From Posidonia oceanica (taxonomy: Eukaryota > Streptophyta > Magnoliopsida > Alismatales > Posidoniaceae): DNA of 64,000 bases. This document shows positions 27,811-48,573 of the stretch, in pieces. The position numbers were made by a program, and so were the translations under genes. The notes under the pieces are model-generated. The model had not been told where the DNA came from. It was given only the letters and a program-made list of their open reading frames with translations, and did not search any database. Where the stretch lies: NCBI GenBank assembly GCA_037176725.1, contig JAZBRS010000049.1:19424001-19488000 (forward strand). Direction: 5' to 3'. Numbering within the stretch: the first letter of the stretch is position 1; every line of letters starts with the position of its first letter.

Positions 27811-28060
27811 GATTCTTCTTTGGCTTTGCTTGCTTTGTTGACCCGATTGTGCTCCGGGGTTCTTGCTGTTCTGCTTTGACTTGTTGGACGCTTGATTGTT
27901 AGCATTCAATGTTGGATGCCTGAAGAACCGCGGCTAATGTTGGACGGCATTGCGGCCGCGTATAACGTCGCGAGACAGGCTGCTGTCTTTCCTGTTCGGG
28001 CACCACCGTTTTGGCAGTAAATCTCCAATTTTTTTTGGGTTTCCATTCCGATAAAGGCTC
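27811..28060 (+). promoter_or_regulatory. Upstream region of antisense gene 1 with palindromic-motif copies
   Basis: Contains half-site copies of the GCGTMYAAYGTTRKACGC family: GTTGGACGC (about 27882), AATGTTGGATGC (about 27908), AATGTTGGACGGC (about 27936) and GCGTATAACGTCG (about 27958). They lie 95-190 bases before the TATA-like box at 28068. One stray 34-bp-family unit lies at 27835-27870. Confidence 0.6.
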
Positions 28061-28067
28061 CACGGCT

Positions 28068-28075
28068 TATATTAG
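28068..28075 (+). promoter_or_regulatory. TATA-like box of antisense gene 1
   Basis: TTATATTA in the context 'ggcttatattagacc', 95 bases before the ATG at 28163. The spacing matches the TATA boxes of antisense genes 2 (29782) and 3 (33830). Confidence 0.5.
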
Positions 28076-28162
28076 ACCTCCTCTTGGCTTGAATCTTGTG
28101 ATTCAAACATTTATCTTCCTTTCCTTATTGATTTTTGCTTGCTAGGGCTTGTGCTTCTCCTC

Positions 28163-29506
28163 ATGGATTTGAGTGATATCCCATGTCATGCTTTCCAAGT
28201 GGCCGTCTTCTCCTCTCCTTCTAACATGGTGCAACTCCGGCTGGAGGCTATACCCAACCATTTGGCGAACCTGTTGGTGCATGAGAAGGTACTCCCTGTT
28301 TTCATCATTTCCGCATACTCCCATTCTCGTACTTCTACTGATTTTTCCTTACTTTATAGCCCCTATCTTCTACCAACAACGACTGTGACTCGAAAGCCTA
28401 TCAGTTGGACTGGGTTCCGCTCTTGGGCTTTGAAGAAGTATTAGGAGTGCTTGGAGGAGGTTGGTTTCTGTCAGGCCCTTCGCCAGCTGCTGCAGCATGT
28501 TGACTGGAAGGTGCTCTTCGGCCTCTGTGGGCTGTGGAATCCTTTGACTCACACATTCTTTTCTTCTTCGGGGGAATTGACCATTCTTTTGGAGGAGGTG
28601 AGCGCCTTCCTAGGTACTCGACATGCCAACCCATCCATTTACTACAGGGATGCCTACCTTTTGCCAATCGGGGTGGTAGGTTCTTTTTCTCTCTTAAAGC
28701 GCATCTTTGGCTCTATTGTTGTGCCAGAGGACCTGGTGCTGGATGGCTTTATCAAACTCTCCTTCTTGTGGAAATTTTTATGGAAACAGCACGACAGCAT
28801 CCGCTCTGAGGCTTCTTGCTTGGAATGCGTCTTTATTCTGATCGGGGGACTGGTGCTCTTCCCAAATAAAGCTCTAACTATTAGTGCCTACCATGTTGAG
28901 CTCATGTGCATCTACGTGCGCAACCCAGAGAAATGTTTGAGTCAGTCTGTCTTGGCTTTTACCATCCGAGGCTTATCCAGTGCCTGCCTCGGGGGGCCAT
29001 TCTTTGGCTCGCCGTTCCTACGTCTGCGCTGGCTAGAGGAGCATTTTCTTCTGCCTGCTCTTGATGCTAGCATTCCCTTGGAGGAGCTCATTCGCCATTT
29101 ATGCGCTTGCAAGGTCAAGTCCCAGATGGACTCCTTTAGTCCCCCCTCGTCTTTCAGGACAGTGTCTGACCCAGAGTATTTCCTGACGCTGATTGGGGCG
29201 ACCGAGTTTGTGAGGTACAACCCTCAGCGATGCTTCTCAATGTTGGGTACTCCTCGGGCTGTACCTCCCTTGCCGCACTTCTCTGATATGATTCTCCCGC
29301 GCTTGAGGGACACTCCTAAGGACATCATCCAGGACTTCTATCAGGCTGGTACTTGGGACAAGAAGGGGCGAAACCGAGTCCTTTCTGAATGGGAGAACTC
29401 GAATGCGGACCGTGAAGCCATTTCTCTTGCAACTTATGACGCTTGGTACGAGGACGTGCGTCCTAAATTGTTCATTGAATTTCCTTCAAAAAGACAAAAA
29501 ATGTAG
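28163..29506 (+). pseudogene. Antisense gene 1 of element C: plant mobile domain / DUF7745-like protein
   Basis: Proposed first exon 28163-28288 (MDLSDIPCHAF...LVHEK), donor AAG/GTACTC at 28289 and acceptor TATAG at 28359 or AAAG at 28396. The acceptor is uncertain because the first breaks the frame. The main exon is open from about 28397 to the stop at 29506, apart from TAG at 28442-28444. It carries LWNPLTHTFF followed by GELTILLEEVSAFLG, the FxP/E-LEEV motif of plant mobile domain proteins, then FGSPFLRLRWLEEHF, YNPQRCFSMLG and a basic C-terminus SKRQKM. The gene is antisense to gag-pol and lies between integrase and the 3' LTR. It is related to antisense gene 3. Host PMD proteins (MAIN, MAIL1) affect silencing of transposons and genes, but the role of element-borne copies is not known. 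An AATAAA follows at 29530. Confidence 0.7.
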
Positions 29507-29529
29507 TTAGAAATGTATCATTTATCATC

Positions 29530-29535
29530 AATAAA
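29530..29535 (+). promoter_or_regulatory. AATAAA polyadenylation signal of antisense gene 1
   Basis: AATAAA 24 bases after the stop codon, followed by T-rich sequence. Consistent with termination of a plus-strand transcript. Confidence 0.5.
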
Positions 29536-29617
29536 ATTTATTTCGTCTCTTTGGTCTCTTTTGAATGAATTTGTATGAGTTGAATGAGAGTATCAGAATT
29601 CAGAACACTTCCCTGAA

Positions 29618-29775
29618 CTTAAAGCGTTGTACGCTCAAAATGGAGTGTCCGTCGTTATACGCTGGCAAACCAGTGGCTAACGTTTTAACTCGCAAAACGT
29701 TGAACGCGTCATATGGCGCGTATAACATTCTTTCTTCCCGAGGCGTTGGACGTTGGGATTCACGCGTACAACGTT
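29618..29775 (+). promoter_or_regulatory. Palindromic-motif cluster upstream of antisense gene 2
   Basis: Seven variants of GCGTMYAACGTT in either orientation: GCGTTGTACGC (29624), CGTTATACGC (29654), TAACGTTTTAAC (29673), AACGTTGAACGCG (29697), GCGTATAACATT (29718), GCGTTGGACGTTGG (29741) and GCGTACAACGTTG (29763). The last ends a few bases before the TATA box at 29782. Confidence 0.65.
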
Positions 29776-29781
29776 GAAAGG

Positions 29782-29787
29782 TATAAA
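29782..29787 (+). promoter_or_regulatory. TATA box of antisense gene 2
   Basis: TATAAA in 'aaaggtataaagccc', 109 bases before the ATG at 29896. Confidence 0.6.
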
Positions 29788-29895: not shown

Positions 29896-32800
29896 ATGGA
29901 GAAGCGGATCTCGCACTTTTATACTCCGGCGGCTAAAAGGGCTCGGACCTGCCCTTCCCCCTTAAGCGAGGTGGCGTTGGAGGCGGCGGTTGGGGCTGCT
30001 GAGGCACAGGAAACGGCGGCCAAGACTGCGGGAGGCGTTGGCGAGGTCGTGGTAGGCGGGGGCATGCCGGCGGAGGCGAGTTCGGCGGCTGTGGGGGCTG
30101 TGGGAGCGGAGGCTTTCCCTGGGCTAGGCACTGGGGTGGCCGTGGAGGCTGGCCGGACTGCAGCAGGGGTGGTGGAGGCTGGTGGTGCCGTGGCGGGGCT
30201 TGGGGCGACGTCCGGTGGCGATCCCGAGGCTGCGAGAGCGAAGACGGGGGCTGGTGGTGGTGGTACCGCGGAGGCCGAGGTGGCAGTTGGTGGCGACGCC
30301 GTGGAGGCAGAGGCGACGGCCAGTAAGGCCACTGTTGGGGAGGACTCTGGTTTCGAGGAAGCCGTAGAGACGACGGCGGAGGCGGTCTCCGGTTCCAACA
30401 GCTCCTTCAGCTTGGAGGATTTAGAGGAGACAGTCTTAGAGACAAGGCCTGAGGTCAGCCTAGACGAGGTGGGGCCCTCGAGGTGCCAAAGGCGAGGCCA
30501 GTCAACCCCTTCCTTGCGCAGTTTGGCGAGGACGACGACTGGTGGCGGAACATGGTCGACTTCGTCTGACGAGAGGCGGAGGGCGATGCGAGGGATCCCC
30601 CGGACTACTGGCCGGAGCAGATCCCTAGGGATGAGGTGCAAGCATCGGGACCGCGTAGGGACGCGTCCCGATCAGAGTACGCCACTGCCACACTAGCTTC
30701 TAAGGGGCAGGTATACATTTTTTATTCTTTATTTCCTTATTTTGTTCAATTATTTCATTCTGACTGATAGTTCTCCTGCTTGCTTGTAGAGTCGAGCATC
30801 GGCCGTGACCTACTGCTACTGGGGTCAGGTCCGCTGGTCCTACGATTTGTTGGCTTCTTTCCAGCAGGAGCGTCTGGATCAGATGGGATTTGGGCATTTT
30901 CTGTCCATCCCGGACTTTCCCCTCCGTCCGATGTTTTTGGTGGCGGTTGTAGAGTGATTGAGCTTCCGGATGAGCTCGATCGTCACGAGGGCAGGTGAGT
31001 TTGTCCTCTCCCTTGAGGACATGGCGCGGCTGACTGGTCTTCGGGTCACGGGCAGACCAGTGACAGGGCGGGTGCGCCCAGGCTACTTGGCTTTGGCGCA
31101 GGAGCTTGTTGGACGTCAGTTAGCCATGAGCGGGGAGCAGCTCGTGGTGATCACTTCCGCGGTTCGCCGAGAGAATATGCTGGCGAAGATAGTAGTCGGG
31201 CAGGGTGTGGAGGCTGACCAGCAGCTACGGGCCTTCCTCCTAGTGCTGTTCGGGGAGGTGCTCTTCTCGCACTCCTCCTCGAAGCTCTCGGCGTGGTTCC
31301 TTCCTCTTCTGGCGGACTTGGAGCGTGTGGGAGAGTACGCTTGGGGTGCGGCTAGCTTGGCGCACCTGTACTCCACCCTATTTCGCTTCACTAATGGTAG
31401 TTCTCGCCAGCTGGGCGGGAACCTGCCCTTCCTTCAGGTAAATCTGTATATTTAAGCTTGCATTGGATATTATATTCTTACTAACAACTTCCTTGTTTTG
31501 CGTGCAAATGTGGGCATGGGACCACTTCACCTTTCTACACCCTGCCCCTCCTCCAGTTCCTCCTACTGGTGTCCCCTTTCCTCGAGGACTATTTTAGGCT
31601 GCTGCTGAGCAGGCCCTCGAGCCAGCAGATGACAACCACTATGTCGGTCATCTGCTTTTCGAGCTCCTTGTCCCGGTTCAGGTAACTTGCTTCTTTTAAT
31701 TTCAGCTTCTGTTTATTTGTTTATGCTGCTTTCTGACATGTATTGCTTCTTTCAGGTGGTTTGGCGTCCCTATGCTGAGCGAGAGCATGCGGACGTCCCC
31801 GAGATTGCCCGTGATCGAGCCATTTTTGACCGAGACGTATGGATCCACTGCTGGAACCACTGCCACTTCCAGCAGATTGGCAGGGCACTACGACAGCTAG
31901 GGCACTGGCAGGCTCAGCCTTCACCTCCTCCTCACTGAGTTTGGCAAGAGACACGTGGTGGGGGTAGCTGTGCTCGCCATTGGGTGGACGTCTACTGTCC
32001 ACAGCTCTTGGACTGGGCCCGTCATGGTTCCCCCGCTCCGACGGATGCTACAGAGGAGGACGAGGCGGTGTGGGCCGAGTGGATAGACTGGGAGTTTTCT
32101 TCTCTGATGATCTTCCACCGGTCCCACTTCCTTGGGCGCGGGAACCTTCCCTTGGGGGACACAGATCCTGGGGAGGCGGTGGTTTCCCATGCGGCCCTGC
32201 TGGAGGAGGTTCCGTCTTCCCGAGCCCAGCTGGAGATAACGGTGAGCTTCTAAATTTCATTTCGTAGACTGTTAATCCAATGTGGTTAACTTGCTTTCTT
32301 TCTTTTACAGCTCAAGGCAGCCGATGAGCGGGCTCAGCAGGAGCGCCACTTGACCCAGTAGCTCTCCATTCTGACCAGGGAGATTGATCGTTTGCAGGCC
32401 TCTGCCTCTCAGGTATCTCCATATGTAGCTTTTATAGTCTGGCTATGAATTGTAACTGACTTGAATCTTTCTTTTCAGCCTTTGACTAGCAGTGCTCCTC
32501 CTCCGGACCGCTCAGAGGAGATCTCCCATCTCCAGGAGAAGGTAAATATGCCTTTATTTTATTTCTGCTTTTGAAATTCCCTTGGTCCTGATGCCATTGC
32601 TTGTAGGTTGCTTATCTAGAGGACGAGCTGAGGGAGCAGGCTGGTGACTTCATAGCTACTAGCTCTATCAGGAGGTTGGAGGAGCTGGAGGGGACAGTTG
32701 CTGCTAGCAGTGCTCGGATCCGAGAGCTGGAGCAGCAGGTTGCTGATAGGGACACTGAGATTGCCCAATCTCATGTGGTACGATTTAATTCAGCGCTTCT

Positions 32801-33105
32801 TTATGTCTTTCATGTCCTTGCTTATATCTGATATTTTGGGCTGCTTCTCTCCTCAGGGTACGGCAGGCGTTATCTCCCAGCTATAACTTGAGCTTGGGCA
32901 CTATTGGAGGTTTGCTTTTTCAGCTGGTGCCAGGCTCGGGGTGCCTGTTCCTTCTGTATCGAGCCGCCGGTCGGGTAGCCATTATTCTCGATCTGTCTCT
33001 AGGGCTCCGTCAGGCGTTTCGGTTCGGCAGTCGCCTCGTCCCCCTACTGCCCCTTCTCCGGCTCCTGCTTCAGCTCCTAAGGGTGAGGGAGAGACTGCTC
33101 CCTAG
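29896..33105 (+). pseudogene. Antisense gene 2 of element C: eight-exon plant mobile domain (PMD) gene with coiled-coil tail, decayed
   Basis: Exons 29896-30710, 30790-31437, 31508-31681, 31756-32241, 32311-32412, 32479-32541, 32607-32777 and 32857-33105. Every junction is phase 0 and has GT donors and AG acceptors, except the acceptor before exon 3, which is AA (31506-31507). Exon 1 is Ala/Gly/Glu-rich after MEKRISHFYTP. Exon 2 holds the PMD core: MGFGHFLSIPDFPLRP, LSLEDMARLTGLRVTGRPVTG and GEYAWGAASLAHLYSTLF. Exon 3 begins MWAWDHF, the usual next PMD motif. Exons 5-7 encode heptad-like coiled coil (LREQ, RRLEELEGTVAAS). Damage: a one-base shift near 30470, TGA at 30567, 30955 and 31936, TAG at 31595 and 32359, and TAA at 32884. 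PMD proteins resemble an aminotransferase-like fold; MAIN/MAIL1 act in the plant nucleus. The gene is antisense to pol, which may explain why its introns survived an RNA intermediate. Confidence 0.8.
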
Positions 33106-33580: not shown

Positions 33581-33720
33581 ATAAAACGTTATACGCCTCA
33601 TCTGCTGTGGCCAACGTTATCCGCTTGAATGTCTGCGTCCAATGCCGGTAGTTGCTCTAAATGTTTTACGCATCAAATGGCGCGGCCAATGTTGGACGCG
33701 CCCCATCTCGCGTAGAACGA
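33581..33720 (+). promoter_or_regulatory. Palindromic-motif cluster upstream of antisense gene 3
   Basis: Copies: AACGTTATACGC (about 33585), CCAACGTTATCCGC (about 33611), GCGTCCAATGCC (about 33629), AATGTTTTACGC (about 33658), CCAATGTTGGACGCGCC (about 33688) and CGCGTAGAACG (about 33710). The TATA box lies 110 bases further on. Confidence 0.65.
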
Positions 33721-33934: not shown

Positions 33935-35280
33935 ATGGCTTCTAGCTCAGTCCCCAATGTCTTCATGCACAACAAGAAGGGGGTCATAAAACCTTTGGAA
34001 GAGATTGAAGGGCATATGATGTCCCTTATCAAGATGGGGAAGGTATGATCTTCTTCATTAGTCCCTTCACATTCCTTTGTTCCTCATGCTTCCGAATTTC
34101 TTTGCAGGAAATCCTCAATTTTACCAAGACACCTTGCTTTGACAATGACTTCCCCTACTACTCCACTTGGGTGAAGGATTTTGTGCTTTGGGCTTGAGAG
34201 AGGAAATCTGTTTTGGCCCGTACGTGCTTTGATGGACTTTTGGATTTATTGGGCGCAAACTTGGACTGGCCCCTGCTTCATGCCTCATGCGCCTCCTGGA
34301 GTCCTGAGATTCATACCTTCTTCTTTGGGGGTTGTGAGGCGACAATCCTAGTAGAGGATGTTCACGGCCTGCTTGGCGTAGCTCAGATTGGAGCGGCTCG
34401 GCCAGATATTGACTTCCCATTGCCGCATGGAATAGCAGATATGCAAACATATATAGACCGTATCTTCACCCTTCCGCCTACCTTCCCAGTGATCAGAGGT
34501 CGCAGACTCAACTTGACACATTTGTACTTCAGCTTCCGGCGGATTGAGGAATCTGCCTCTCAGGATCAACTGCTGGTGTGTCAGCATTTACTGATTGGAG
34601 GCCTCACTTTATTTGTCACCAAGGATTTCTCCTTGGATGTTTATCATACTGAGTTCTCGATAGGCCTTACTGAGCATTTCTGGCGCTCTCCTTCAGTCGG
34701 CATTCTTGTTGCTACATATCTCGGCCTGACTAGCGTTTCCACCGGAGGGGATTTTGTAGGCTCTCCTTTCTTTCTTTCCAGGTGGCTGCAGGTCCATTTC
34801 CCGAGGCTCGGTCCCGTGAAGACGGATTTGATTGACGAAAGGGTTTTCTCTTTGTCCACTGCCCCTATTGACATTTCCGTGCCTTCCACGTCCCTTTCTC
34901 ATAAGCACCAAGTGCGAGGTTCTTCAGTTGAGCTAGAGTTGATAGGGCCCACCCACTTTGTAGTATACAACTCCCATTGTTGCTTCGAAATGGTGGGGCA
35001 GATGAAGGGAGTGCCACCTCGGCTGAGCTTTATTCCTCGTATTCGGGTTCGGGAGTGCAGTCTTCCATCTGATGCAGTAATAGTGTACTACATTCGGGCT
35101 CTTTGGTCGTCTCTGGACCGCCATGATGATTCAGAGGGGCCATCAACTGCTCCTTCGACTTGCTGCCTACCACGGGAGGATGCACACTGGAAGTGGTATT
35201 CAAAGCTACTGCCCAAACCCGAGGAGTGGGTTGAAGCGACGGGCATGCTGTGCAGGAAAAGGAAGAAGATGGTTAGATAA
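33935..35280 (+). pseudogene. Antisense gene 3 of element C: plant mobile domain / DUF7745-like protein, two exons, one nonsense codon
   Basis: Exon 1 is 33935-34042 (MASSSVPNVFMHNKKG...). The intron, 34043-34107, has GTATGA and TTTGCAG ends. Exon 2 is 34108-35280, in phase. The only break is TGA at 34195-34197 after DFVLWA. Exon 2 carries SWSPEIHTFF followed by GGCEATILVEDVHGLLG, the same LEDV-type motif as gene 1, then FVGSPFFLSRWLQVHFPR, a VYNSHCCFEMVG segment and a basic end RKRKKMVR, a possible nuclear signal. About 420 residues in all. Genes 1 and 3 are diverged paralogues with the same exon-1/intron plan. Located antisense between integrase and gene 2, it is the best preserved of the three. 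The function is unknown. Confidence 0.75.
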
Positions 35281-36983
35281 ACAGTCATTGTAATTTTTAA
35301 TTTCAGGGACCATGTATCTTTTCAAGGGAATTAATATATATATTTCATTTTTCATCCTTATTCATGTGTTTTGGACTGTTCTGAGTTTAGAAATATTCCC
35401 TGGTGGATATGATATTTGATCAAGGGCCCCTTTTCCACATTCTGCAGTTTAAGTCACAGTTAAAACGTAAGACGCTCAATATGGCCCTTATAACGTAAGA
35501 CGTAGAATATCAGACGTCCAATATCCCTCTGTTGATCGTTATACGCTTCAGATGGCGCGTCCAATGTTGGACGCTGATTTTTGCTCGTTTAACGCCCCTG
35601 AACTGTTTCCCTGCATTACCTCAGCAAATTTGTTAATCCATCTAGGGGTATTATTGCCCCTAGTCCAAAGTGATTTCTGGAAACTTAGAAACATCCTTAA
35701 CACTGTGAAATCAGCATGGTCACAGAGCACTTGGTAACAACCTATATACAATGCATATTTTAAGCAGACCTAATGCTATGAATGGGAAAGAAGAAATTAA
35801 GGGAAACTTAGGTTTTGAATAACAAGTATACTGTCTCTTCTTGAGATCCCAGTCTTAGCTCCTAGGCGAATACCAAGCGACCGTCCTGAATAGGAGGGGT
35901 CGAGTACGACGCGGAGTCGTAAAATGTCCTAGATTTTTGCATCACTGGCCTTTACTTGTTATCACATCACTGGCCTTTACTTGTTATCAGTTTCATGAGA
36001 TGATGTTGGTTGGGTAGATTTTACCCTACTCACTATTTTTGGATTTTTGACTTTATCATTTTTTTTTTGGATTTTTTATTTTCGATTTTTTTTTGGATTT
36101 TTGATTTTATCGTTTTTTTTTTTTGATTTTTGATTTTATGAGAGATGAAGAATCCTCCGGGAAGTTGGGAAACTGGAGACCTCATGGTTGGAAAACCTTG
36201 ACAGTTTGGTCCTTTGTGCATCCTAGAGTCAAAAAATACCACGGGCTCACCTTGGCACCTAACTACCCCTAGACCTAGGTCTCTGCCCCTTGCCTCTTAG
36301 TGTACAGTGCAGGATGTGGGTAGAAGGAAAGTCCATGCCCTATCCTAAGATGTCGGCTGAGGGTTTGAAGCCTAAACCCCTCCTAGTTCAAGGTTGATTG
36401 CTACTGCGCTTAGTATTCCCCAGCTTTTCAGTTTTGACTCTTGGACAGCTTCTTTGCTGCCGTCTTTTCCACTCTCTTTCTTTTTCCTTGCACATGGACA
36501 ACTTCTTTGCTGCCTTCTTTTCTACCCCCTTTTTTCTTGCTTTCTTTTCTAGGTACTTTGCCAAGTAGTCTCACCCCTTCTGAGTGCTCGGTCAATGGAC
36601 ACTCGCTTTTTGATGAACCGAGACACTCTTTCATTTGATACACTCCCCTCTTTTCTACACTTCTAGGTTTTGGCCTTAGATGCCTACCCAATTTGTATTG
36701 GGGTAACGCGCTTGACTCGAGGGATGTGTGTGGACTTGTTATTCATGAACTGGGAGGGGGCTCCTTATGATTTGCCTCTATCTCAGTGTGGGACCATTTC
36801 CTTTCCTTTTCCCACAAGGTGTTTGTGGGGTGAGGCTAAGGCATGATTCCTAGGCTTCAACAGTAGAGGGCCCTTAAGCACGGGTAGTCTAATGGCTTAG
36901 TGTGCATATCAAGGGTAGTACCTTTTGAGGTGTAGTGCATTCTAGGGATATTCAAGCCTAGTGCCATCCTCTCTGGCCAAACA
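35281..36983. other. Spacer between antisense gene 3 and integrase of element C
   Basis: No gene seen. At 35462-35590 there is a dense cluster of the palindromic motif, including a full 18-mer GCGTCCAATGTTGGACGC at 35557-35574. At 35937-35990 a 24-base phrase ('atcactggcctttacttgtt') is duplicated. At 36050-36135 there is a T-rich run of 'ttttggatttttgatttta' phrases. The remainder is unremarkable. Confidence 0.6.
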
Positions 36984-38084: not shown

Positions 38085-38732
38085 CTATGAAGTTGCGTAG
38101 TCGGGGAAGATCCCGTCTTGAATGTAGTTCTGGATGTCAAAGAACCATGGGTTCCCGTCATCCTCTATGTTGTAGCAAACTTCAAACATGCCTACCCTTG
38201 ATGCCCCAACTTTTCGTCTAAGCTCCACGGCCCATGGCTCAGTTGAGTCAATGGCAGGTATCCTGTGCTGTTGAACCATTATTGTTTGCTCCTGGATATT
38301 GATGGGGAACTCGATCGAGGAAGCCAGCAAAGCGAGAGCATTTGCTAGTAGGTTATGACTCCAGAGGGTGTGGACGTACACCACTTGCTAAAATCGTGCC
38401 AATAGGAGGCGTGCAATGCCTTTGTATTCTTCTAGCCTTGGGTTGAGGGTTCTATACTTGTTCAAAATTTGTCTTAGAACCAATTGGGAGTCTCCGATGA
38501 GTTTCAACTGCCTTGCCCCTAGCTCCAGTGCTAGGCGTAGTCCGAGGATCAAGGCCTCGTATTCTGCAACATTGTTGGTATTTGCGGCAAAGTTTAGCTG
38601 TACAGCTCGAGGATTGAGAACTCCTTCTGGAGTGAGAAGTGCTACTCCGATGCCTGCCTCTTGTCTATTGAGTGCTCCATCAAAGTAGAGGGTCCATTGT
38701 TGAGTGGGAGACTCGGTGGCTTGTATTTCCAA
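38085..38732 (-). pseudogene. Archaeal-type RNase H (aRNH) of element C
   Basis: Begins after a linker, with WTLYFDGALNRQEAGIGV (Asp at about 38681), NNVAEYEALILGLRLALELG (Glu at about 38564) and LKLIGDSQLVLRQ (Asp at about 38492). TAG near 38388 interrupts it. The last catalytic Asp, normally in an ADALA motif, reads Asn here (LLANALALLAS). A second, archaeal-type RNase H between the Ty3 RNase H and integrase is the diagnostic feature of plant Tat-lineage elements, where it takes over RNA removal from a degenerate native RNase H. Another TAG lies at about 38085. Confidence 0.88.
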
Positions 38733-40709
38733 TATCTCCTCATCGGGGAAGTCTGTTCGGACTGGTTGATAATCTTCTATTGGTAGTTCTGCCAGGTGAT
38801 TTGCAATGGCCTGCCCCTTGACTGCCTTCTAGGACACATATTGCAAGTCGAATTCAATGAGGAGAAGTTGCCACCTTGCCAACCTTCCAAAGAGGGCTGG
38901 CTTCTCGAACATATATTTGATTGGGTCAATTTTGGCAATGTAACAGACTTTATGGGCTAGGAAGTAGTGTCTCAACTTTTGAGATGCCCATACCAAGGCC
39001 AAGCAGTGCTTTTCTATGGCTGTATACTTCTCTTCATAACCCAGGAAAGTTCTACTCAGATAGTAGATAGCTTTTTCCTTCTTCCCATCCTCATCATGTT
39101 GAGCTAGCACTACCCCTATTGATGATGCAATGGCTGCCACATAGAGTAGCAAAGGCTTCCCTGGCATAGGCGCTGACAGGACTAGGGGGTTCATGAGGTA
39201 TGCTTTGAGTTCATCAAAAGCTTTCTGGCATTTCTCATCCCATGTGAATTCCCTTCCTCCTTTCAGTAACTCATAAAACGGCTTACATCAATCTGCATGC
39301 TGTGAGATGAATCTCCTGATGAACTGTAAGCGGCCAATAAGTCCCCTGAGTTCCTTGATGTTTTGGGGCGGAAGCATCTGTGCTATTGCTCTGGCCTTCT
39401 GTGGGTCCACCTCAATTCCTCTCTTGCTGATGATGAAGCCCAGTAGCTTCCCGGTAGTTACCCTAAACACACATTTCTTTGTGTTCATTTTCAGCTGATA
39501 TTGCCTTGCTTTGCTCAGTACCCTTCTTAATGCCTCAAAGTGTGCCTCCCTTGTTCTTGATTTGACCAAGATATCGTCAACGTACACTTCCATGCAGTCG
39601 TGCATCATGTCGTGGAAGATGGCCATCATCGCTCTCTGATATGTTGCGCCAGCGTTCTTGAGACCAAATGGCATGACTACGTAGCAGTATGTCCCCCATG
39701 GTGTGATGAACGACGTCTTCTCTTGGTCCTCCTCTACTAGCTTAATCTGGTTGTAACCGGAGAAACCATCCATGAAAGATAGCATCTCAAATCCTGCTGT
39801 ATTGTCCACTAGCAAGTCAATATGTGGCAAAGGGAAGTCATCCTTGGGACAGGCGGCGTTGAGGTTGCGATAGTCAATGCAAACCCAAACTTTCCCGTCC
39901 TTTTTGGCCACTGGTACTATATTTGTGACCCAACTGGGGTACACAACCACTCTGATGAATTTTGCTTTGTAGAGCTTGTCAATTTCTTCTTTGACTTTGA
40001 GGGCAAGTTCCGGCCTTAGTCGCCTTAGCTTCTACTTAACGGGCTTGGTTCCAAAGTTTAGGGGAAGTAGGTGTTCCACTAGGGTTGATTGCAGTCCAGG
40101 CATATCCACATATTTGAAGGCTAGCACATCCACAAATTCTTTCAAGATTTGGACCATCTCCTCCTGCTCTTTTGGGCTCAGGCTTGCACTTATGAGTATT
40201 GATTTTGGCTCTTCAGCAGTTCCCAGGTTGACCTCCACAGTCTCTTCTTCGGCTACCTTGGTTTGCTCATCATATTTATCCATGAGGTGCTTAAGGAGGT
40301 TTGAGTCGGCCTCTTGATCTTCTTCCTCATCACTGCAGCTAACCAGCTCATACGCCTCTATTCCTGCACACTTCCCAAACCGATCAAATTCTTCTACTAG
40401 GAAGACCATGTTAGCAGTAGCCAGCTCCTGAGGCAATGCCTCCGTGTATTGACACACACACACAGTTTTGGAAGCGGTGGTCGAAGTTAACCGCGAGCTG
40501 CTAGAACTAACATGGTAATCCTCTCCCTTATTGAAAACAGAAAGTAAATTACTTTTATTCCTAGGAAATGAAAACAATATAGAATTAAACAATGTTTTAT
40601 TTACAGCATCTAGGGGGATGTCCCTAGAGTTACCTCCATCAGTAGAGGTAGGAGCCTCTCTAGGTGGGCTCGTCAGGATTGACGTTCCCATCATCTTCGA
40701 GAAGCTCAT
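38733..40709 (-). pseudogene. Reverse transcriptase and degenerate Ty3 RNase H of element C
   Basis: A single frame with TAG at 40032, TGA at 39288 and TAG at 38829. The acidic linker EEPKSILISASLSPKEQEEM precedes the RT. RT motifs are IDYRNLNAACPKDDFPLP, SFMDGFSGYNQI, FGLKNAGATYQRAM and the catalytic YVDD at 39584-39573, then GFIISKRGIEVDP and the connection IKELRGLIGRLQFIRRFI. The following native RNase H reads LLLYVAAIASSIGVVLAQ, with the usual first catalytic Asp absent, which is common in Tat elements. RT copies genomic RNA into cDNA in the particle. This is the only RT in the window. Confidence 0.92.
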
Positions 40710-41621
40710 AGTCGGCCCCTAGATCAGGGTCAACTTCAGGTCTCTGAGGTTGCAGCCCTTCAGAGAGATCAGTCGTGAGCCAGCAGACCCTGTCTACGAG
40801 TCGTTGTGACTTGCATAGAGTTTGCCCCGGCCTTTGCTCCAAAGAGGAAGAGATGTCCGGAGCTGGAGGAGGTGGAGGCTTGGAAGTGGCAGTGCCAGAA
40901 GAAGAGGGAGAAGAAGAAAGATGTGGCCGATCCAGAGGTTCAGAGGCCGATGCGCCTAGAGAAGAGGGCAAAGAAGAAAGAGGTGGCTGATCCAGAGGTT
41001 CGGGGGCCGGTGCACCTAACAGTGGTGGCGGCGATGTTGCAGTCTGACCTTCGTGAGGTTTTGCTGGCAACTCTTTTGGAGTCTGACCTTCGTGAGGTTT
41101 TGCTGCTACAGTCTGGCCTTCATGTGGCTCTGCTGTCAACTCCCTTGCAGTTTGACCTTCGTGAGGCTTTGCTGGCAATTCAAATGTTTGGAATAAGCCA
41201 GAAATGTTTACGTCGGCTGTGTCCTCTGCACTTTGGAGAGTGTTTTTAGTTGATTGCGCTAAAATAATATTTTTCAAGGGGATGAATTTGGGTCGAATAT
41301 CCCTACGCTGGTAAAATGTCCTTGTAGATTCCACTGTAGTGGTCGTCCGTCGGGGAACTGGTCGAAACCGAGTCCTCCTCATCCTTCTCTGTCACAGGCC
41401 TTCACTGGCTCCTTCATTCCCTTTTCTTCTGGGCTTAAGCCCTGGCCTTTTTTGTAGCCAATTCTCCTCATGATTTCCCATCCCACATTCATGGATGGTC
41501 TTTGGCTTTTGGAGGGCTCCTTCTTCTTGTGAAATAGCTTAGGCCTGGCCCACTTGTCCCTCAGCTCGACCATAGACACTACATTCTTGCCTTTTTCGGT
41601 GCAGGTCAGCTTCTCTCGCAC
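40660..41621 (-). pseudogene. G-patch domain and acidic linker of element C
   Basis: The G-patch (about 41483-41397) reads VGWEIMRRIGYKKGQGL followed by EEKGMKEPV, the glycine pattern of nucleic-acid-binding G-patches. A TGA at about 41379 and a one-base shift near 41390 interrupt the next segment (GLGF.., then RRDIRPKFIPLK). A linker follows with four or five imperfect copies of KPHEGQT (41050-41190). A further shift near 40670 leads to the RT frame. Element A has a G-patch at the corresponding place. Confidence 0.75.
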
Positions 41622-42140
41622 ACTGAACTAGTGCGGCAGGTATATCACATTTGCCTCTGCTTCTTGGCTTGGTATGTCCCTCACTATCTTTATGATTTTC
41701 CCATCGTGTGGGAATTTCAGGCATTGGTGCCGAGGAGATGATACTCCTTTTAAACTGTCCAGCCATTGTCTCCCCAGGATAATCTGATATGGGACATTGA
41801 CGTCTATGACGATTAGTTGGGTTAGAACCTGAGCTGGTCCTATCCCTATCTTTGTGGTCCACTTGCCATGTGCTTTTCTTTTGCTGTCATCATACCCGGC
41901 AATCGTCATATCAATGGGGGTTAAGGAGGCCTCATTCACGCCCAAGGCTCGTTTTGTATTCAACGAGCAAATGTTCATTGATGCACCAGTATCTATGAGC
42001 ACTTCAAAAATTAAGTGATTGTTTATAGAAATGATTACATTCAATGGAGCTTTTCTCCTCTCTATTGGTGCCAACTCGCTATCAGCAAAAGTAATGATTG
42101 GTTCTACAAAGGCTGCTGTAGCTATGATATGGGGCAACTT
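41622..42140 (-). pseudogene. Second retropepsin-like domain of element C
   Basis: Aspartic protease with active site VLIDTGASMNICSL (DTG 41993-41985), then VPYQIILGRQWLDSL. It aligns with the single protease of element A, including the upstream ISIYDLINSSNEHQKALL segment (42190-42240). A one-base shift near 42140 separates it from the upstream frame, and TAG at 41628 ends it. The catalytic triplet is intact. Confidence 0.82.
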
Positions 42141-43311
42141 GGGCCTTCTCTAGCACTTCTAGCAGAGCTTTCTGGTGTTCATTTGAGCTATTTATGAGGT
42201 CATAGATCGAGATCCTGGCCTGCATCTTCTTTACTTGCTCTAGGATGTCATATTCTGCCGACCCAGGTCCTACTTCAGGTCTGACCGGCTCTGCTTGCTC
42301 TGCTGGTGGCATGATTCGATTTGACAGCCTCCCTCCTCTGGTGATGGGTGCAGCAACCTCATTTCCTTTGGATGCTCCCTTCTTGAGCGGCCAGGCGAAG
42401 ATGGACTCCCTCCGTATTGATCCGCCAAGCTCTGGTGGCTTCGTGGCTCTAGCTCGCTGCTCTGTTGGCACTTGGAAGATTGGGGATGATGGAGTAGTAG
42501 TGCCTCGAAGTACTGAAGTGCTGAGGGTCGGCAATTGACTTGATGGTGGCCTTGCTGCTCTGAAGATTGGGGTGACTGGTGGTGATAGCAACTTGGGATC
42601 CCATAGCGGTGATTTTCTCCATGGCAGACGTTGTGACTCCTCCTCTTCCCGAAGGGTTGCAATCTGTGGCTCTGGCATCTTGAATGTGTATAGAATCCCT
42701 GGTCGGTTGGCTGGAATGCTAACAACCGCTCCTTGGTATTTGAATTTTAGCATTTAATGAATCGAAGATGCTACAGCCCCGACCACCGCTAGCCAAGACC
42801 TCCCTAGGATGAGTGGCTCCAGGACTTCCTCCTTCATAATGATCACTGAAGTGATACTGGTCAAAGGACCGACTGTGATTTCCATGGGTATTGTCCCTAG
42901 TGCCAACTTCTCTTTCTAATCAAACCCAGTGCACATAAAAGGAGTCCTATCCATCTCGCCCTCATTTAGCCCTAAGCTCCGGAGTGTGGAGAGAGAACTG
43001 AGGCTTCGGCTCACTCCAGTGTCGACAAATACTCCTTGGAGCACATTATCATTGATGCCCACTGTGATGACAAGTGGCAGCTCTTGCTTATGTGGGGGCG
43101 GAAGCTTCGAATCTTTGAAGACTATATTTTCCCATTCAAATTGCTGATTGGCTTTTTGAACTTGGCTTTCCTCCTCTATGTCTTCTTGTGGCTCCTCCAC
43201 TACTGCTGTGAGGTTGAACTGGGTAAGGAGCTCCTTCACTGTTAGTCCCTCATCTGCCTCACTGTCCCAATCATCATCCGAGATTATTCCCCAGTGTTCA
43301 GCTTGGCTGTC
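42141..43311 (-). pseudogene. First retropepsin-like domain and Pro-rich linker of element C
   Basis: An earlier, separate protease-like domain: LQGVFVDTGVSRSLSSLSTL (DTG 43023-43015), then LEPLILGRSWLAVVGA about 85 residues later. The usual ILGR.WL partner motif is also present, so the fold is complete by eye. In-frame stops lie at 42916 (TAG) and about 42757 (TAA). A 150-residue Pro/Ser-rich linker leads to the second protease. All segments share one frame down to the shift near 42140. Confidence 0.7.
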
Positions 43312-45279
43312 CTAGTCCTCTTCTAGTACAACATGGTTGTCCCAGTCCTTTGATGTTAGCGGATTAGGGAGTTGCTCATCCTGGAATGCCATGACTTGGT
43401 GCTTGGGGAGAGGGTCACTGTAGACCTGTTGGGACGTCCCTGTCTGCTTTCTTTGTTTGGCTCTTTTGACCAGGACATCCCATTCAAACACATCTGCCTC
43501 CACCATGTCATAGACTATGTCCCTGAAAATCCAGCAGTCATTGATGTTGTGACCATGCATTCTATGGAACAGGCAGTATTTGCTCCGATCACAATTCGGC
43601 AATTCTGGCCTAGCTGGCGAGAATTCGAGTGCTTTTGCTTCCTCTAGTTCTATAAACATATCTGCTAGTGTGACTGGTAGAGGAGGGTAATGGTCTCTTC
43701 TTCCCTTTTTGCGTGGCAATGGAGGGGGAACATTATGATAACCGCTCCCATTCCCAGTGTTGTTGGGGGGATTTCGGTTGTTGGCTTGGCCATTTTGATT
43801 GCCCCTAGTCCATTGCTGCTGGGGAGCATTCCACATAAAGCAGATCTGTTGCTGAAGGGGAGGGTTATTCCATGCCTATTGCTGTTGTGGAGGGCGGCTT
43901 CAAGCTTGCTGTTGCTGAGGAGGAGGGTGGCTCCATGCTAGCTGTTGCTGAGGAGGAGGGTGGCTCCATGCTGGCTGCTGTGAAGCTAGTATAGCCCTTT
44001 GTTCGAACAGCCTGTGTGCGGGGCTCATCTTGTTGATGACTCCGGTCACTCCCTCTATCACCTGTGCTTTTCGGCTCTTCTTCGGCTCCTCCATGAATTC
44101 ATGCAGATTTTCTTTAACAGAGAACACCACTTCGTACAAAGCCGTTACATTGGGGCAATAGGCATTTACTAGCCCCTTCTTCATTGGTCTAGTGGTGTTT
44201 GCAATGAGGGTCTGGACCACTTGTCTCTCCGGAATGGTCAGCCCTGATCTGGCTGCCATTTCTAGCCATCTGTTGGCGAATGTTACCCAGCTTTCGCCTT
44301 GCTTCATGACCTCCTTGCTTAGGTCGTGGAAGGTTGGCTTGGGGTCTATCTTGTGCTGGTATTTTGTGAGGAAGCTCTCTTTGATTTTATCAAAGCTGCT
44401 GAGGTCTTCCTTGGAGAGAGTGAGAAACCAATCCATGGACTCTCCCTCGAGTGAGTTGAAGAACAGGTGTACCACAAGCCCCAAATCATGAAAGTAGGGG
44501 ACTGACTCCATTTGGAACTGCACTAGGTGACTGAGTGGGTTAGTGGTTCCATTGAACTTGGGAGTCTTTGGGTACTTGAAGCCTAGAGGTAATCTGAATG
44601 GGGGAAATCGGCTCATATCAAAGTTTGCCCGAGCCTAGGTATGTATCCCTAATGCACTGAGCATTTTTCTCATCTCATCCAAATTTGTTATCCCGGCTGA
44701 TGGGGTCGGGACATGTGAATTGAAGGACGGATGGTTTTGCTGCTGATGGAGGTAGCTGTTGCAGAAATGTTGAGGTGCGACATGCTCGTATCGCGGGGGA
44801 GATGCCTGGTGGTGGTGATGATCTGGCCGAGGCTGATTGCCTGCCATAGGTGGTCGGGGATGTCTTAGATAGACTCCTTCCTTGTATTCGCCATGTGGCA
44901 TGTAGTTGTGTTCTTGAATCAAGGGGTTGGCCCTTGAGTTACAAGCTCCGTTGAGCGCTGTGCTCGGACCTGGGTGGTTTGTGTCCGGCGGTGGGTTGCC
45001 ATTTTGTCCCTGGTATAGATCTTCAGGGGTATGGTCCGCAACTGGCCTTCATTGTCCTTCACCGAGATGGGGTGGCTGTTGGAGGTTGTTTAGACATGGC
45101 CTCGTTTGGACTGATGTCTCTTTGTTTAAAAACTGGTACATGGCTCTATACTGGATTGAGTCCAGATCTAAGGCTTCTCCGGTGATCGGGTGGTAGATTG
45201 TAGGCTCCTCTCCCGAGGTACTTGCTGAGTCTGACCTCTCTCTTTCTAGCTGCTCAGCTTCATGGATTTGATTCATCAT
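43312..45279 (-). pseudogene. gag: gag of element C
   Basis: Starts at MMNQIHEAEQ (45279) and is open in one frame apart from TGA about 45049, TAG about 44635, TGA about 43900, TAG about 43883 and TAG about 43312. The N-terminal region is rich in His, Gln and Pro. The Gag core has FKYPKTPKFNGTTNPLSHLV, SLEGESMDWFLTLSKEDLSS and MKQGESWVTFANRWLEMAAR. A Gln/Pro-rich repeat with WSHPPPQQQ units follows, then a C-X2-H-X4-H-X4-C knuckle (CLFHRMHGHNINDC, about 43575-43534). It forms the particle shell and packages RNA. The same CHHC spacing occurs in Gag of A and B. Confidence 0.85.
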
Positions 45280-46994
45280 TACTGCAGCTTTTGAGATGGA
45301 ATTAGCTTCAGGGCGTAATACACCTCAGTGTAAGGCGTATAACGTTGGACGCACAATGTCAGGTGTACAACACCCTTAACAGTACTCCTCCTATCTTCTC
45401 CTGTCTTTTCTTTTCTATTTTTTCTCCTTTTCCTCTCTTTTTTTTGCCTGTTTTCTTTTTCTGCTTTTTTTTATATGATTTTTTTTCCTGTTTCTTTTTG
45501 TTGTGTTTTGGCTTTTCTCTTTTTTTTTAATCTCTTGAAGGATTTACAAATGCAAAGGAAAAGAAATTATAAGAACTTGGAAATTTTAATACAGATTCCT
45601 AAAAACGTAAAAATGAAACAGAACTATCACTGTTATGGGTATTTCCATTGTCTTCCCCTGTCAAACAAATCACAAAGGAGCTAAAAATATAACTGCCACA
45701 CAAAGAATGCGTTAGACGCTTGACCTTCTGCGTATAACGTTAAACGCAGAGATCTCAGCAGCCAATGCCCTGTTTCAGAGAACTGCACAGAAACACTTTC
45801 AAACAACGATTTAAGGTTTTAAGTTTTGTTTTCACTTTGAGATTAGTGCTTTAAACCTACTGTAGCTCTCTGGGTTCCTTAAGGCTTAGGTATGGCTTTT
45901 TTTTTTGGAATTTCCAAGGCTCCTCACAAGATAGGTGAATATGATTGGTACTACCCCCTACCTCAACTCCTGAGGATGCTAGAGGGAGCCTGAATACACT
46001 TAGGTCCCTACCCCGTAGAGGTAGAGCCCAGCATACTCAGGATTGATCGAGTCACTTACGTATCCACACACAAATGCAATAAACAAACCACCGAAGGGGG
46101 GGGGAAGAATACAAGTCAGAGCTTGAGGTTCTAATTATCTTTCACAAAAGGCCAAAGAAGAAGGAGGGCCCTTAGTAAAAGATAATGACAATACAAGTAC
46201 CTTTCCTAAGCCCTTTGCAACAGAGGTGCTTGGGACCTAGATGGTTACTTATATAACCCAAGAAATGACACAAGCAATTAGTTCCCAATGAGGGCCATGC
46301 AAGTCATATAAAAAGATTTGATTTTTTATTTTGTTATTCTTTGCAAAGCACCCACAGAAATTGAAGTTCCGGTCCCTACGGCAAAGCCGATCACCTCACA
46401 CCTCAATTCTTCGGGCCAGTTATAACAAGGAAAACTAAAAGAAATTTTAAAACAGAAGGGTTTCTGTTCAGTAGTCGTTAGACGCAAATATTGCAGCGTC
46501 CAATGTTAGACGCGCCAGATCACGCGTATAACGTACTGACAGTATTTTTTCAGAAAAAGCAGTAATTTTTACAGATCACCCCCACGCCCGAGAATCCAGA
46601 GAGAAGGGGGAGGTGATTTCAGTTATTGAAACATAGAAAACAAACGAAAAAGATCACGACGCCTCAAAACACTACGAGGAATTTCGCTGCTTCTTTAAAA
46701 CATACGAGAAAATAAGAAACTAAAACTAAACGAAGAATGTCAATAACGAAGGAGGAAGAAGAAAGGAAGGGTTTGCTTACCTTGCACGAGGGCACTTTTA
46801 GCCGTCCCACTATGATCGCCAGCCTATGGATATGGGGTTTTGGAGGAGAAGTGAAGAGGAAGATGGTGAGGGAGGTTTGGGGAAGATGAGGCTTCTTTTG
46901 GCTCTCTTCCTCGCTCTATCTTCTCTTTCTTGGGGTCCCCTTCTTTGTATCCGACTCCGTCACTCCACATGTGATGGAATCGGTGTGATCGCCA
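45280..46994 (-). other. Leader / inner LTR region of element C (boundary unresolved)
   Basis: No gene seen. Full 18-mers of the palindromic motif occur at 45335-45352 (GCGTATAACGTTGGACGC), 45730-45747 (GCGTATAACGTTAAACGC) and 46497-46514 (GCGTCCAATGTTAGACGC). A T-rich stretch runs 45400-45540. Two minus-strand TGGCGATC words, ending at 46814 and 46987, could mark a primer-binding site, but neither fits a familiar tRNA end convincingly. The inner end of the 5' LTR therefore lies somewhere in or just right of this region. Confidence 0.5.
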
Positions 46995-47064
46995 CCCTTG
47001 GTTCACTTTCGTTGACCCTCGAAATGCCTTTGGGGAGATGTAGTGTGGTTGCGGGTTCAGCTAC

Positions 47065-47091
47065 CTTGGGACAACGCCAGCGTTGCCCAAG
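47065..47091. other. Hairpin in 5' LTR of element C
   Basis: Same 12-bp inverted repeat with single-base bulge as at 71-97. It is downstream of the TATA box in element orientation, so it would be in the RNA. Confidence 0.6.
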
Positions 47092-47634
47092 GGTGCCCGT
47101 GCTTGGTAAGCTCTTTCTTCCTTCTTCCTCCTTGTATGACAAACGTTAGCAAAGCAAAACAAACAAAACAATATAAAGATGGATCAATATGTGTAGTAAC
47201 CTATCCAGAATTAGTAGAAAAGAAAATAAAGAAAGCGTAGTGAGATACGTACCCGAGGGGTTTGATCCCTCTAGTTGCAACTAAAAGAGATGTATGCCTA
47301 GCTAAAACAATATATGAACTTGAAATAAAAAATGCTTGATTATGCAATGGAATTAAACATGTGATATCAGAAATGAAAAGGAAACGAATGAAATAGAGTT
47401 TCCTCTGTCTATGCACAAGGTGCAAACTATGTTGACATGAAGCCAACAACGACAAAAGGATCCTCAAGCTTTTTGAAGACTCTCCTTCTTTCAAAATCTC
47501 TCTTCTCTCTTTCAATTCTTAAGGACCTCACTACTCTAAGATTTTTAATCTCAAGAGTACGTGAGTTCCAAAAGTTTCTTAACTCCTTTTCTCTCTCAAA
47601 ATTCCGGCCTTGAACTCTATGGGGGTACCCTTGC

Positions 47635-47646
47635 TTTTATAGAAGC
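47635..47646 (-). promoter_or_regulatory. TATA box of the element C LTR
   Basis: On the minus strand CTATAAAAGC, inside a near-perfect palindrome (CCCTTGCTT..AAGCAAGGG at 47627-47650). Motif clusters lie 60-380 bases upstream in element orientation. Missing from the 3' LTR copy. Confidence 0.65.
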
Positions 47647-47699
47647 AAGGGAGGAACAAAAAAGGATACAAATGCCAAGTTAGCAAAGTTTCCTGTTTC

Positions 47700-48020
47700 A
47701 GAAGTGTTATACGCTGGAAAACCAGTGTATAACGTTATAAGCGAGAGTACCCGCGTATAACGACCTTCGAGGCATAATTGCCAAGATCAGAGAAGATTCC
47801 GCAATTAAGGAGTCTTTAAGTGTGATTAAACTCGGCTTTGATGGCTTTGACCGATCAACAGGTTCCAAAGAAGGCAAAAACATGATTTTTGGAATAGGCC
47901 AAATAAGGAAAGCTTTGGCTGACTAGGTTGCCACGTTGGACGCTGGAATAGCAGCAGCTAATGTTAGCTGCTGGAAAACTAGCGGCTAACGTTGTATGCT
48001 GAGAATCCAGCGGACAACAC
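47700..48020 (-). promoter_or_regulatory. Palindromic-motif clusters in U3 of element C LTR
   Basis: Copies include GTTATACGC (about 47707), GTATAACGTTATAAGCG (about 47727), GCGTATAACG (about 47753), ACGTTGGACGC (about 47934), AATGTTAGC (about 47958) and TAACGTTGTATGC (about 47984). They sit upstream of the LTR TATA box, as in the antisense genes. Confidence 0.6.
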
Positions 48021-48228
48021 CCTTAATCCATTTAACTTCCAAATTTGGTCAGGACGTGAAGAACACTCAGGTTGCCAACATTTGGGGCTTGGATAAGGAT
48101 AGTATTTTGGACCTTGAGGGGAACATTTGGCTCAAGTGAGATTCAGAAATGGGTGGAGGGCTTCTAAGAGCGACTTAATGCAAGAGACTATTCTAACATG
48201 AAGGGAGTGCCAAAATGGGGTATCTACA

Positions 48229-48573
48229 GCAGCGTCCAACGTAGGACGTTAAAGCCCCCAGCGTCCAACACATGAAGGATGCAAACCTACCTGCAAAGGG
48301 GGAGCTCAGCTCTAAACCCCACTTAAACATGCATGCAAGCTACTGAGGACATGCTAGATCAGGAAAAACCACTTATACCAAGCATATAATCCATGAGAAG
48401 CAAGTAAAAAAGAGTATGCAGAGGAATAAAGGGGTAAAAATCCATGAAAATTAGCATGCAACTTGAGAGGAGACTAGCAAGCTTAAACATGGTTGCCATA
48501 GGGGCCATGCATCACTAAACATGCATGGATCATGTATAAATCTCGAAAATAAGCAAGATACAAGCATGGCAGC
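48229..48573. other. Sequence between elements C and B
   Basis: No gene seen. Begins GCAGC next to the C LTR and ends GCAGC next to the B LTR. Two further motif copies (GCGTCCAACGTAGGACG at about 48232 and GCGTCCAACAC at about 48264) lie just outside the C LTR, so this flank may be part of a related older element. Confidence 0.45.

Follow-up and report, generated by a model that had tools for sequence, protein, structure and literature searches.

A stretch of 64,000 nucleotides from the seagrass Posidonia oceanica, called the window below (assembly GCA_037176725.1, 2.96 Gb in 80 contigs; contig JAZBRS010000049.1, C48:19424001-19488000), contains a long Ty3/gypsy retrotransposon, element C, whose non-coding DNA carries nine arrays of a short inverted repeat. 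The arrays are located in the leader and near two kinds of promoter, that of the long terminal repeat (LTR) and those of three antisense genes for PMD proteins. They recur at matching places in other copies of the element and, with differently spelled middle bases, in other element families. The pattern looks like a recognition address by which the elements control themselves. We propose, with about an even chance of being right, that the arrays are the operator of a dimeric DNA-binding protein, most likely an element-encoded PMD protein, in a feedback linking sense and antisense promoters.

A 28-bp inverted repeat as the unit of the arrays

An earlier note on this DNA had reported four nearly complete copies of an 18-bp palindrome, and these were found at 35557, 45335, 45730 (one mismatch) and 46496 (given there as 46497). 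With up to three mismatches, the window contained 25 strand-hits, all at 27902-48249 and confined to element C and its flank, versus 0.24 expected from 100 shuffles, which bears out the reported clustering of a dispersed dyad motif far above chance. Using the fixed bases only (GCGTNNAAY), we counted 31 exact half-sites at 27811-48573, 29 in element C and two in the flank, versus a mean of 2.2 and a maximum of seven in 200 shuffles, and 20 half-site pairs in register versus none in the shuffles. The list of enriched words of 27830-48573 was topped by gapped words of the array motif (e.g., GCGTnnAAC, 21 vs. 0.97), which were absent from the top 12 enriched words of the pol-gag part. As had been claimed, the motif is non-coding; in pol-gag, half-sites stay at the background level (24 with up to one mismatch over 9.7 kb, including a single exact one). 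The neighbouring elements A and B contain two and four exact half-sites, none of them part of an 18-mer match; there were no matches to the two-unit pattern in viral contigs or to the array pattern in prokaryote genome contigs.

Writing the half-site GCGTNNAAC, the core of the arrays, as '>' and GTTNNACGC as '<', we observed the strict register '<' +19 '>' +9 '<' +19 '>'. Partners of exact half-sites were counted at offsets of up to 150 bp if at least five of the seven fixed bases matched. The best non-overlapping partner was the half-site of opposite orientation beyond a spacer of 10 bp (20/27 anchors), followed by the neighbouring unit at 28 bp (14/27) and a second partner at 47 (12/27), while the partner within the 18-mer ranked lower (10/27) and other spacer lengths from 4 to 17 gave counts of 0-3 only. 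The top-scoring offset, +2 (21/27), was disregarded as a half-site overlapping itself. Because the best partner sits across the 10-bp spacer and not inside the 18-mer, the unit is a 28-bp inverted repeat, GTTNNACGC-N10-GCGTNNAAC, and the 18-mer, previously taken as the unit, is the junction of two units. In a matrix test that left out each unit's own cluster, 25 of 26 units scored 13.9-31.4; the shuffle maximum was 18.3 (20 window shuffles), so the weakest few units are not convincing alone. A curated unit at 45316 failed this test (-10.8) and was excluded from the 28-bp units; other copies have an 11-bp spacer there.

Similarity between the arrays stops at their edges or at most ~18 bp past them in the pairs listed, and one 26-bp match lies outside the arrays. 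In 41 half-sites the information content was 1.5-2 bits for the seven fixed bases, 0.7 for the middle dinucleotide and 0.1-0.5 for the spacers, values that are partly circular because the half-sites were picked for at most one mismatch. The observed/expected ratio of CpG was 1.44 in the arrays versus 0.50 in the remaining non-coding DNA of element C, again partly circular since the motif contains CpG. The claim that dyad symmetry is kept at CC/AT variants of the half-site did not hold up: the variable dinucleotides were equal across the palindrome in 5 of 15 cases (shuffles 3.9, P 0.34).

Positions of the arrays in element C

Element C runs on the minus strand in the order 5' LTR, gag-pol, three plus-strand (antisense) genes within 28163-35280, tandem repeats and 3' LTR (Table 1). 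It has the gypsy domain order with the integrase last, and matches to RT_RNaseH (38829-39287) and RVT_3/RNase_H (38388-38828). A second RNase H between the first and the integrase is a feature named for Tat elements (PMC9289625), and the presence of this domain therefore places element C, as judged from its sequence, in the Tat type. A primer-binding-site-like TGGCGATCATAGTGGGAC lies directly left of the 5' LTR. The window start gave rise to a spurious LTR edge at 46997; copies place the edge at 46827. The 3' LTR is missing ~595 bp of U3 (the counterpart of 47628-48222), lost between GGGGTA repeats; another locus (L005) has an LTR with the full U3 followed by internal sequence as in element C.

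Three of the nine arrays are upstream of the antisense PMD genes and one downstream of the third, three are in the leader and two in U3. Their reported location upstream of the TATA boxes of all three antisense genes and of the LTR was recovered at the distances listed in Table 1. Beside the leader arrays, where only the minus strand was searched, we found one TATA-like word, gag-ward of array 7 on that strand. The first spacer of array 5 is 11 bp long, and its outermost half-site is degenerate (5/7). A further cluster at 48230-48275, which had been assigned to element C, belongs to its surroundings: the flank to the right (48229-48573) resembles two loci of another family, D, with 92-95% identity to L031:1318-1578 and 93.6% to L032:1266-1608. 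In L031, half-sites lie on both sides of the insertion point ('<' at 1301, '>' at 1321). By this alignment, element C is inserted into the spacer of a family D array (48228/48229).

Table 1. Features of element C and its array-bearing flank (positions in the window).
Feature	Position	Strand	Description	Counterparts in other loci
5' LTR	46827..48228	-	TG...CA; right edge from 3' LTR and termini of elements A and B	left edge common to L005 and L035
3' LTR	1..640	-	cut by window start	
gag-pol	36984..45290	-	GAG, protease, reverse transcriptase (RT), RNase H, second RNase H, integrase (IN); interrupted by stops	
Antisense PMD gene 1	28163..29506	+	putative start; main open reading frame (ORF) 28445-29506 after in-frame TAG	
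Antisense PMD gene 2	29896..33105	+	several exons (putative limits)	
Antisense PMD gene 3	33935..35280	+	putative start; main ORF 34198-35280 after in-frame TGA	
Array 1	27883..27966		three 28-bp units; ~100 bp upstream of TATA-like word (28067) of PMD gene 1	L025:2864-2947, L035:5653-5736
Array 2	29626..29781		upstream of PMD gene 2, touching its TATAAA (29782; 0-1 bp)	L025:4616-4716, part in L035:7390-7426
Array 3	33588..33718		~112 bp upstream of TATA word (33830) of PMD gene 3	L025:8535-8665
Array 4	35467..35593		follows PMD gene 3, lying between that gene and 3' end of pol	L026:389-487
Array 5	45315..45371		leader, just upstream of putative gag start (~45282, minus strand)	same place in L006, L027, L028, L029, L033, L034
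Array 6	45711..45766		leader, two units	same place in L006, L027, L028, L029, L033, L034
Array 7	46477..46532		leader, two units	same place in L006, L027, L029, L033, L034; L028 does not align here
Array 8	47706..47761		U3 of 5' LTR, 65 bp upstream of LTR TATAAA (47641, minus strand)	3' LTR of copy 2, L005:1482-1537
Array 9	47935..48018		distal U3, three units	3' LTR of copy 2, L005 ~1711-1775
Array remnant outside element C	48232..48269		in flanking element D; LTR end at 48228	

The antisense PMD genes

The antisense gene products were assigned by Pfam matches to PMD (PF10536, curated cut-off 34.9). An exon of gene 2 (30958-31455) matched above the cut-off (E 7.6e-24, 85 bits), and genes 1 and 3, which are paralogues (31%), matched below it (E 3.1e-5 and 3e-5, 23.8 bits each). 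The gene 2 exon also gave a weak match to DUF1985 (PF09331; E = 0.001, 19.5 bits, below the cut-off of 35.1). TRP28 (PF04195) had no match at E up to 0.1 in the antisense ORFs scanned, which cover part of the exons; PMD was matched instead. Between copies, dN/dS of the PMD ORF pieces was 0.20-0.49 (0.20 and 0.49 for gene 1, 0.33 and 0.40 for gene 2, 0.23-0.43 in three pieces of gene 3), compared with 0.17 for RT, 0.27 for IN and 0.09-0.24 for GAG; stop codons (0-2 per relative) were omitted from these point estimates. The ratios suggest that the products of the antisense PMD ORFs have been retained as proteins, although in the window the ORFs of genes 1 and 3 follow in-frame stops.

Gene 2 contains a coiled-coil-like stretch near its end, where 32607-32831 gave weak matches of coiled-coil type, none of which reached the cut-off. 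Its product starts with MEKRISHFYT in three copies (window 29896-29950, L025:4885, L035:7660), which has a PCNA-interacting (PIP-box-like) look and might tie the protein to replication-coupled methylation. A protein database search with the first 60 residues yielded no homologue at an E of 0.001 or less. Searches of solved structures with two PMD ORFs gave no matches, and in a PMD scan of viral contigs two stretches fitted a pattern, neither of which was confirmed. One database protein (P0002, from an ENA contig of 1063 bp) fuses gene-1-like and gene-3-like PMD sequence and is probably a deletion or recombinant copy.

Conservation of the arrays between copies

A second copy of element C (contig C1; adjoining loci L005, L025, L026 and L006) is 83-97% identical piecewise, tandem repeats aside, and has all nine arrays at matching places, the U3 arrays being seen in its 3' LTR. 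In a third copy (L035, taken as a neighbour), the U3, gene-1 and gene-2 arrays are present. Five further loci, selected for holding the 18-mer, have leader arrays at matching places, three each in L027, L029, L033 and L034 and two in L028, where the third part is unaligned. In loci picked irrespective of the motif, gap-free alignment was obtained for 72 of 76 half-sites, and 5.8-6.7 of the seven fixed bases are present per segment, like in the window. The alignments thus indicate strong conservation of array position and register.

At the level of single bases, the alignments point to moderate constraint on the fixed bases. In the loci not chosen for the motif, pairwise non-CpG differences were 11.7% at fixed bases, 17.6% in other non-coding DNA, 24.0% in spacers and 28.3% at the variable dinucleotide, and invariant columns were more frequent among fixed bases than in spacers (P 0.005). 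Over all copies, some of which were chosen for the motif, the corresponding values were 6.7%, 15.6%, 25.1% and 21.7%, with P 7e-6 for fixed versus other bases and P 0.035 for CpG bases. Between element C and copy 2, 10 of 204 fixed non-CpG bases differ versus 298 of 3246 others (P 0.04), and CpG bases show no difference (34/157 vs. 49/195).

Abundance in the genome and differences between families

The exact 18-mer occurs 78,296 times in forward and 78,528 times in reverse orientation in the 2.96-Gb genome, where a control pattern gave no match and the expectation per strand is 0.18 (first-order composition of a sample) or 1.4 (uniform). Because AACGTT sites count on both strands, the number of distinct sites lies between ~78,000 and 157,000. 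We also analyzed 180 kb in 18 stretches, each of 10 kb and set at a fixed place with the motif disregarded. This unselected sample contained 62 exact half-sites versus 13 and 26 occurrences of two control words (both strands). The spacers from '<' to '>' were 10 bp (three cases) or 11 bp (nine cases) and of no other length from 0 to 30, and the gaps from '>' to '<' were 0 (four) and 29 (one). When one mismatch was allowed, other spacers occurred seven times versus 26 at 10/11 bp. Pairs with 10-bp spacers or 18-mers were present in five of the 18 stretches, not counting stretches with 11-bp pairs alone.

Contrary to the earlier supposition, the array is not confined to element C. Family D (L031, L032) has arrays mostly every 200-300 bp with mostly 11-bp spacers, and arrays are present in six loci without similarity to the pieces of element C tested (L001-L004, L013, L030) and in two loci encoding relatives of the proteins of elements A and C (L009, L010). 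Of the two outcomes which the earlier note had named as speaking against its motif, absence from the same positions in other copies was thus not what we found, and frequent occurrence outside the family of element C, in other elements, was.

The families differ in the variable dinucleotide and in spacer length. Family C (the window and 10 C loci, representing eight copies) has mostly 10-bp spacers, and its 159 half-sites have AT (51), CT (36), CC (35), AC (19) or TC (11); in family D, 38 of 47 half-sites have CC. A single locus, L036, represents family E, whose GAG is 59.5% identical to that of element C and whose dinucleotide is TC in 14 of 19 half-sites (P 1.7e-10 if sites are treated as independent, which they are not). 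Counted by array, TC is in the majority in four of five arrays of family E versus none of the 17 that were scored for the window and copy 2 together, a tally that omits the copy 2 array after gene 3 (L026). The arrays of family E align in part with two of the three leader arrays and with the U3 arrays of element C; differences between the two elements affect 30/40 variable, 43/141 fixed, 50/101 spacer and 743/2298 other bases. Spacer length and dinucleotide are linked, as CC/CC pairs make up 29 of 55 pairs at 11 bp versus 15 of 87 at 10 bp (P 1.4e-5, with families not independent; L002 was omitted because it overlaps L001). Two C-like LTRs, ~74-84% identical in pieces, have CC with 11-bp spacers (L022) and mostly AT with 10-bp spacers (L011).

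A possible operator and its alternatives

To explain these observations, we propose a unit of 28 or 29 bp, GTTNNACGC-N10/11-GCGTNNAAC, iterated head to head, in which each half-site would be read by one subunit of a sequence-specific protein acting as a dimer or larger assembly, with the half-sites across a spacer ~two helical turns apart. Because the leader, the LTR promoter and the three antisense PMD promoters all have arrays, one factor could switch sense and antisense transcription together. The candidate factor is an element-encoded PMD protein, which would create a feedback loop and may keep its own promoters and the LTR active via transcriptional activation and/or local anti-silencing, as VANC proteins do for their transposons. 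We favour it because the sites mark the promoters of PMD genes and the middle bases differ by family. Binding of a protein to the arrays, the identity of the binder and the effect of binding are what we infer here.

Several observations weigh against this reading. Element A has a PMD gene and no such array, and two A-like loci (L019, L021), in which a PMD gene (74-80% to that of element A) accompanies RT and integrase, have one exact half-site each. Conversely, families that do not align with the non-coding DNA of element C (D; L009, L010) carry the array and may lack a PMD gene. Element C itself has a mixture of dinucleotides, with no co-variation between half-site partners; family E is a single locus whose gag-proximal array does not align with that of element C. 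The PMD ORFs scanned have no recognisable DNA-binding domain, and a structure model of the ORF 34198-35280 from six sequences reached a pLDDT of 31 and was not used. The copy in the window looks dead, and its PMD genes 1 and 3 have in-frame stops. The constraint on fixed bases also falls short of significance in some comparisons: in loci not chosen for the motif, invariant columns did not distinguish fixed from other bases (P 0.33) or fixed from other CpG bases (P 0.42). Between element C and copy 2, 44 of 361 fixed bases differ versus 347 of 3441 in other non-coding DNA when all bases are counted (P 0.20), and between families C and E, 30.5% of the fixed versus 32.3% of the other bases differ (P 0.71), with spacers at 49.5% (P 0.003).

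A serious rival is a host factor, because several families share the frame of the array and element A has a PMD gene without arrays. The arrays would then be binding sites of a dimeric host transcription factor that several Tat families exploit independently, an explanation which we regard as quite possible but less likely than an element-encoded factor. Their CGT/ACG-type cores resemble plant NAC and bZIP sites. In addition, Sirevirus elements have palindromic repeats upstream of TATA boxes, for which the accessible text proposes no element-encoded factor (PMC2829016). However, family-specific dinucleotides over several arrays of one element (TC in E, CC in D) and the linked spacer length are easier to explain with co-evolving element proteins, and the PMD genes of the element itself have arrays at their promoters.

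A more specific form of the PMD reading is an addressable switch code, in which PMD proteins encoded by the Tat elements of this genome would read the frame GTT..ACGC-N10/11-GCGT..AAC, and the middle bases and spacer length would set which family responds. This would be a large-scale retrotransposon version of VANC self-recognition and anti-silencing that controls sense and antisense promoters together; we put it forward tentatively and consider it less likely than not in this full form.

It is improbable that the arrays are functionless short tandem repeats spread by slippage and recombination. The fast divergence of the spacers and the only moderate constraint at base level would fit this explanation, as would the tandem repeats that Tat-type elements often bear (PMC11963269). 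Nevertheless, the fixed half-site bases differ less than the spacers, whose length stays at 10 or 11 bp, and the promoter places of the arrays are kept between copies. Still less probable is a signal in the genomic RNA, where the unit might fold as a 9-bp stem with a 10-nt loop for packaging or RNA-protein recognition. The geometry of the unit and a weak self-complementarity of the spacers (49/125 pairs vs. 31, P 0.0002) are in its favour, but the variable bases that would face each other in the stem of the 28-bp unit show no co-variation (equal in 4 of 25, shuffles 5.5, P 0.86). This lack of co-variation led us to reject RNA hairpins and suggests that each half-site is read alone. The most far-fetched option, arrays attracting the insertion of related elements, could draw on the location of element C itself in a family D array and on a weak palindrome preference of plant LTR retrotransposon insertions (PMC6911290), but no in-register half-site was among those listed beside two other C-type LTR edges with outer flank (L005 near 600, L035 near 1443), element A sits in a 44-bp tandem repeat and element B at 48574, neither of them in such an array.

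A phased site near element promoters, kept in other copies and spelled differently by family, offers a DNA target for tests of what antisense genes do in giant plant retrotransposons and what role gypsy-encoded PMD proteins have. Should PMD proteins bind the array, this would account for their presence in these elements and extend self-addressed silencing control from DNA transposons to retrotransposons. The ~78,000 exact 18-mers per strand would then represent tens of thousands of binding sites spread over the host genome.

Comparison with known systems

Foamy viruses encode the accessory protein Tas in their 3' part, which acts on the LTR and an internal promoter; unlike element C, they are animal viruses with a sense-strand accessory gene and different sites. 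We found no description of the present array in the accessible parts of the open-access literature on palindromic arrays in Ty3/gypsy or Tat elements, on PMD with retrotransposons or antisense ORFs, and on element-encoded LTR activators. The nearest precedent is the palindrome set of the Ty1/copia-type Sirevirus elements (BMC Genomics 2010, PMC2829016). Their 'RM boxes' are likewise high-copy, element-specific, CpG-rich palindromes clustered upstream of the LTR TATA box and of the extra (env-like) gene. They differ by belonging to another superfamily and by their CGG-CCG core, and the accessible text mentions neither antisense PMD genes nor an inverted-repeat unit of fixed spacing, nor does it propose an element-encoded binder.

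The parallel with VANDAL transposons and their VANC proteins that the earlier note had drawn holds in part. VANDAL families have a family-specific short motif repeated in their non-coding DNA and encode a protein family (Hosaka et al. 2017, PMC5735166; Sasaki et al. 2023, PMC10398659) which carries DUF1985. The non-coding arrays, the family-specific bases, the PMD dN/dS well below 1 and the weak DUF1985 match of element C lend weight to the parallel. The differences between array families resemble those of VANC targets, which differ as a set between related families (PMC5735166), although C-type arrays are family-specific in dinucleotide and spacer only and have fixed bases common across families. 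VANDALs are Arabidopsis DNA transposons with the motif YAGTATTAY in one orientation instead of an inverted repeat in fixed register, and binding and methylation loss have been demonstrated for VANC (PMC5735166, PMC10398659), whereas both would be predictions for the arrays of element C.

Antisense genes between pol and the 3' LTR are also present in Retand, Grande and RIRE2 (Vicient 2025, PMC11963269; 2020 review, PMC7264820), and the product of Grande gene23 is nuclear and expressed from its own promoter. The Retand gene has a TRP28 domain and not PMD, no shared promoter array is described in the accessible text, and element C is far longer. PMD proteins are known from gypsy elements as PMD-A (PMC5418596, PMC7156037, PMC9899485). 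The host PMD proteins MAIN and MAIL1 affect silencing and are needed for the expression of genes with the 'DOWN' promoter motif, whose direct recognition is one of the authors' hypotheses, with binding unproven (PMC7156037, PMC9899485). The DOWN motif (CATGCAGTTT in the MORC1 promoter) is unlike the 28-bp unit, and neither an array nor self-recognition is described in these papers as far as accessible. PMD genes of the ~3-Gb tea genome coincide with 175 loci of phased small interfering RNAs (PMC10673657).

Neighbouring elements

Element A (3290-26762) is inserted in the tandem repeats of element C and encodes a protease ORF with a G-patch domain (14902-17481). Downstream of its sense-strand PMD gene (12112-13209), it has dispersed repeats of ~22-28 bp at 9540-10580, TAGTTTAGGATATCAGCC and GTTACTGGATATCAGCCGTATAAC, which are possibly its own target set. 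We do not claim them as a form of the 28-bp unit, as they scored 12.5, below the shuffle maximum of the matrix test. Two LTR-like arms of element B (48574-54315 and 56020-61872) are inverted around ~1.7 kb.

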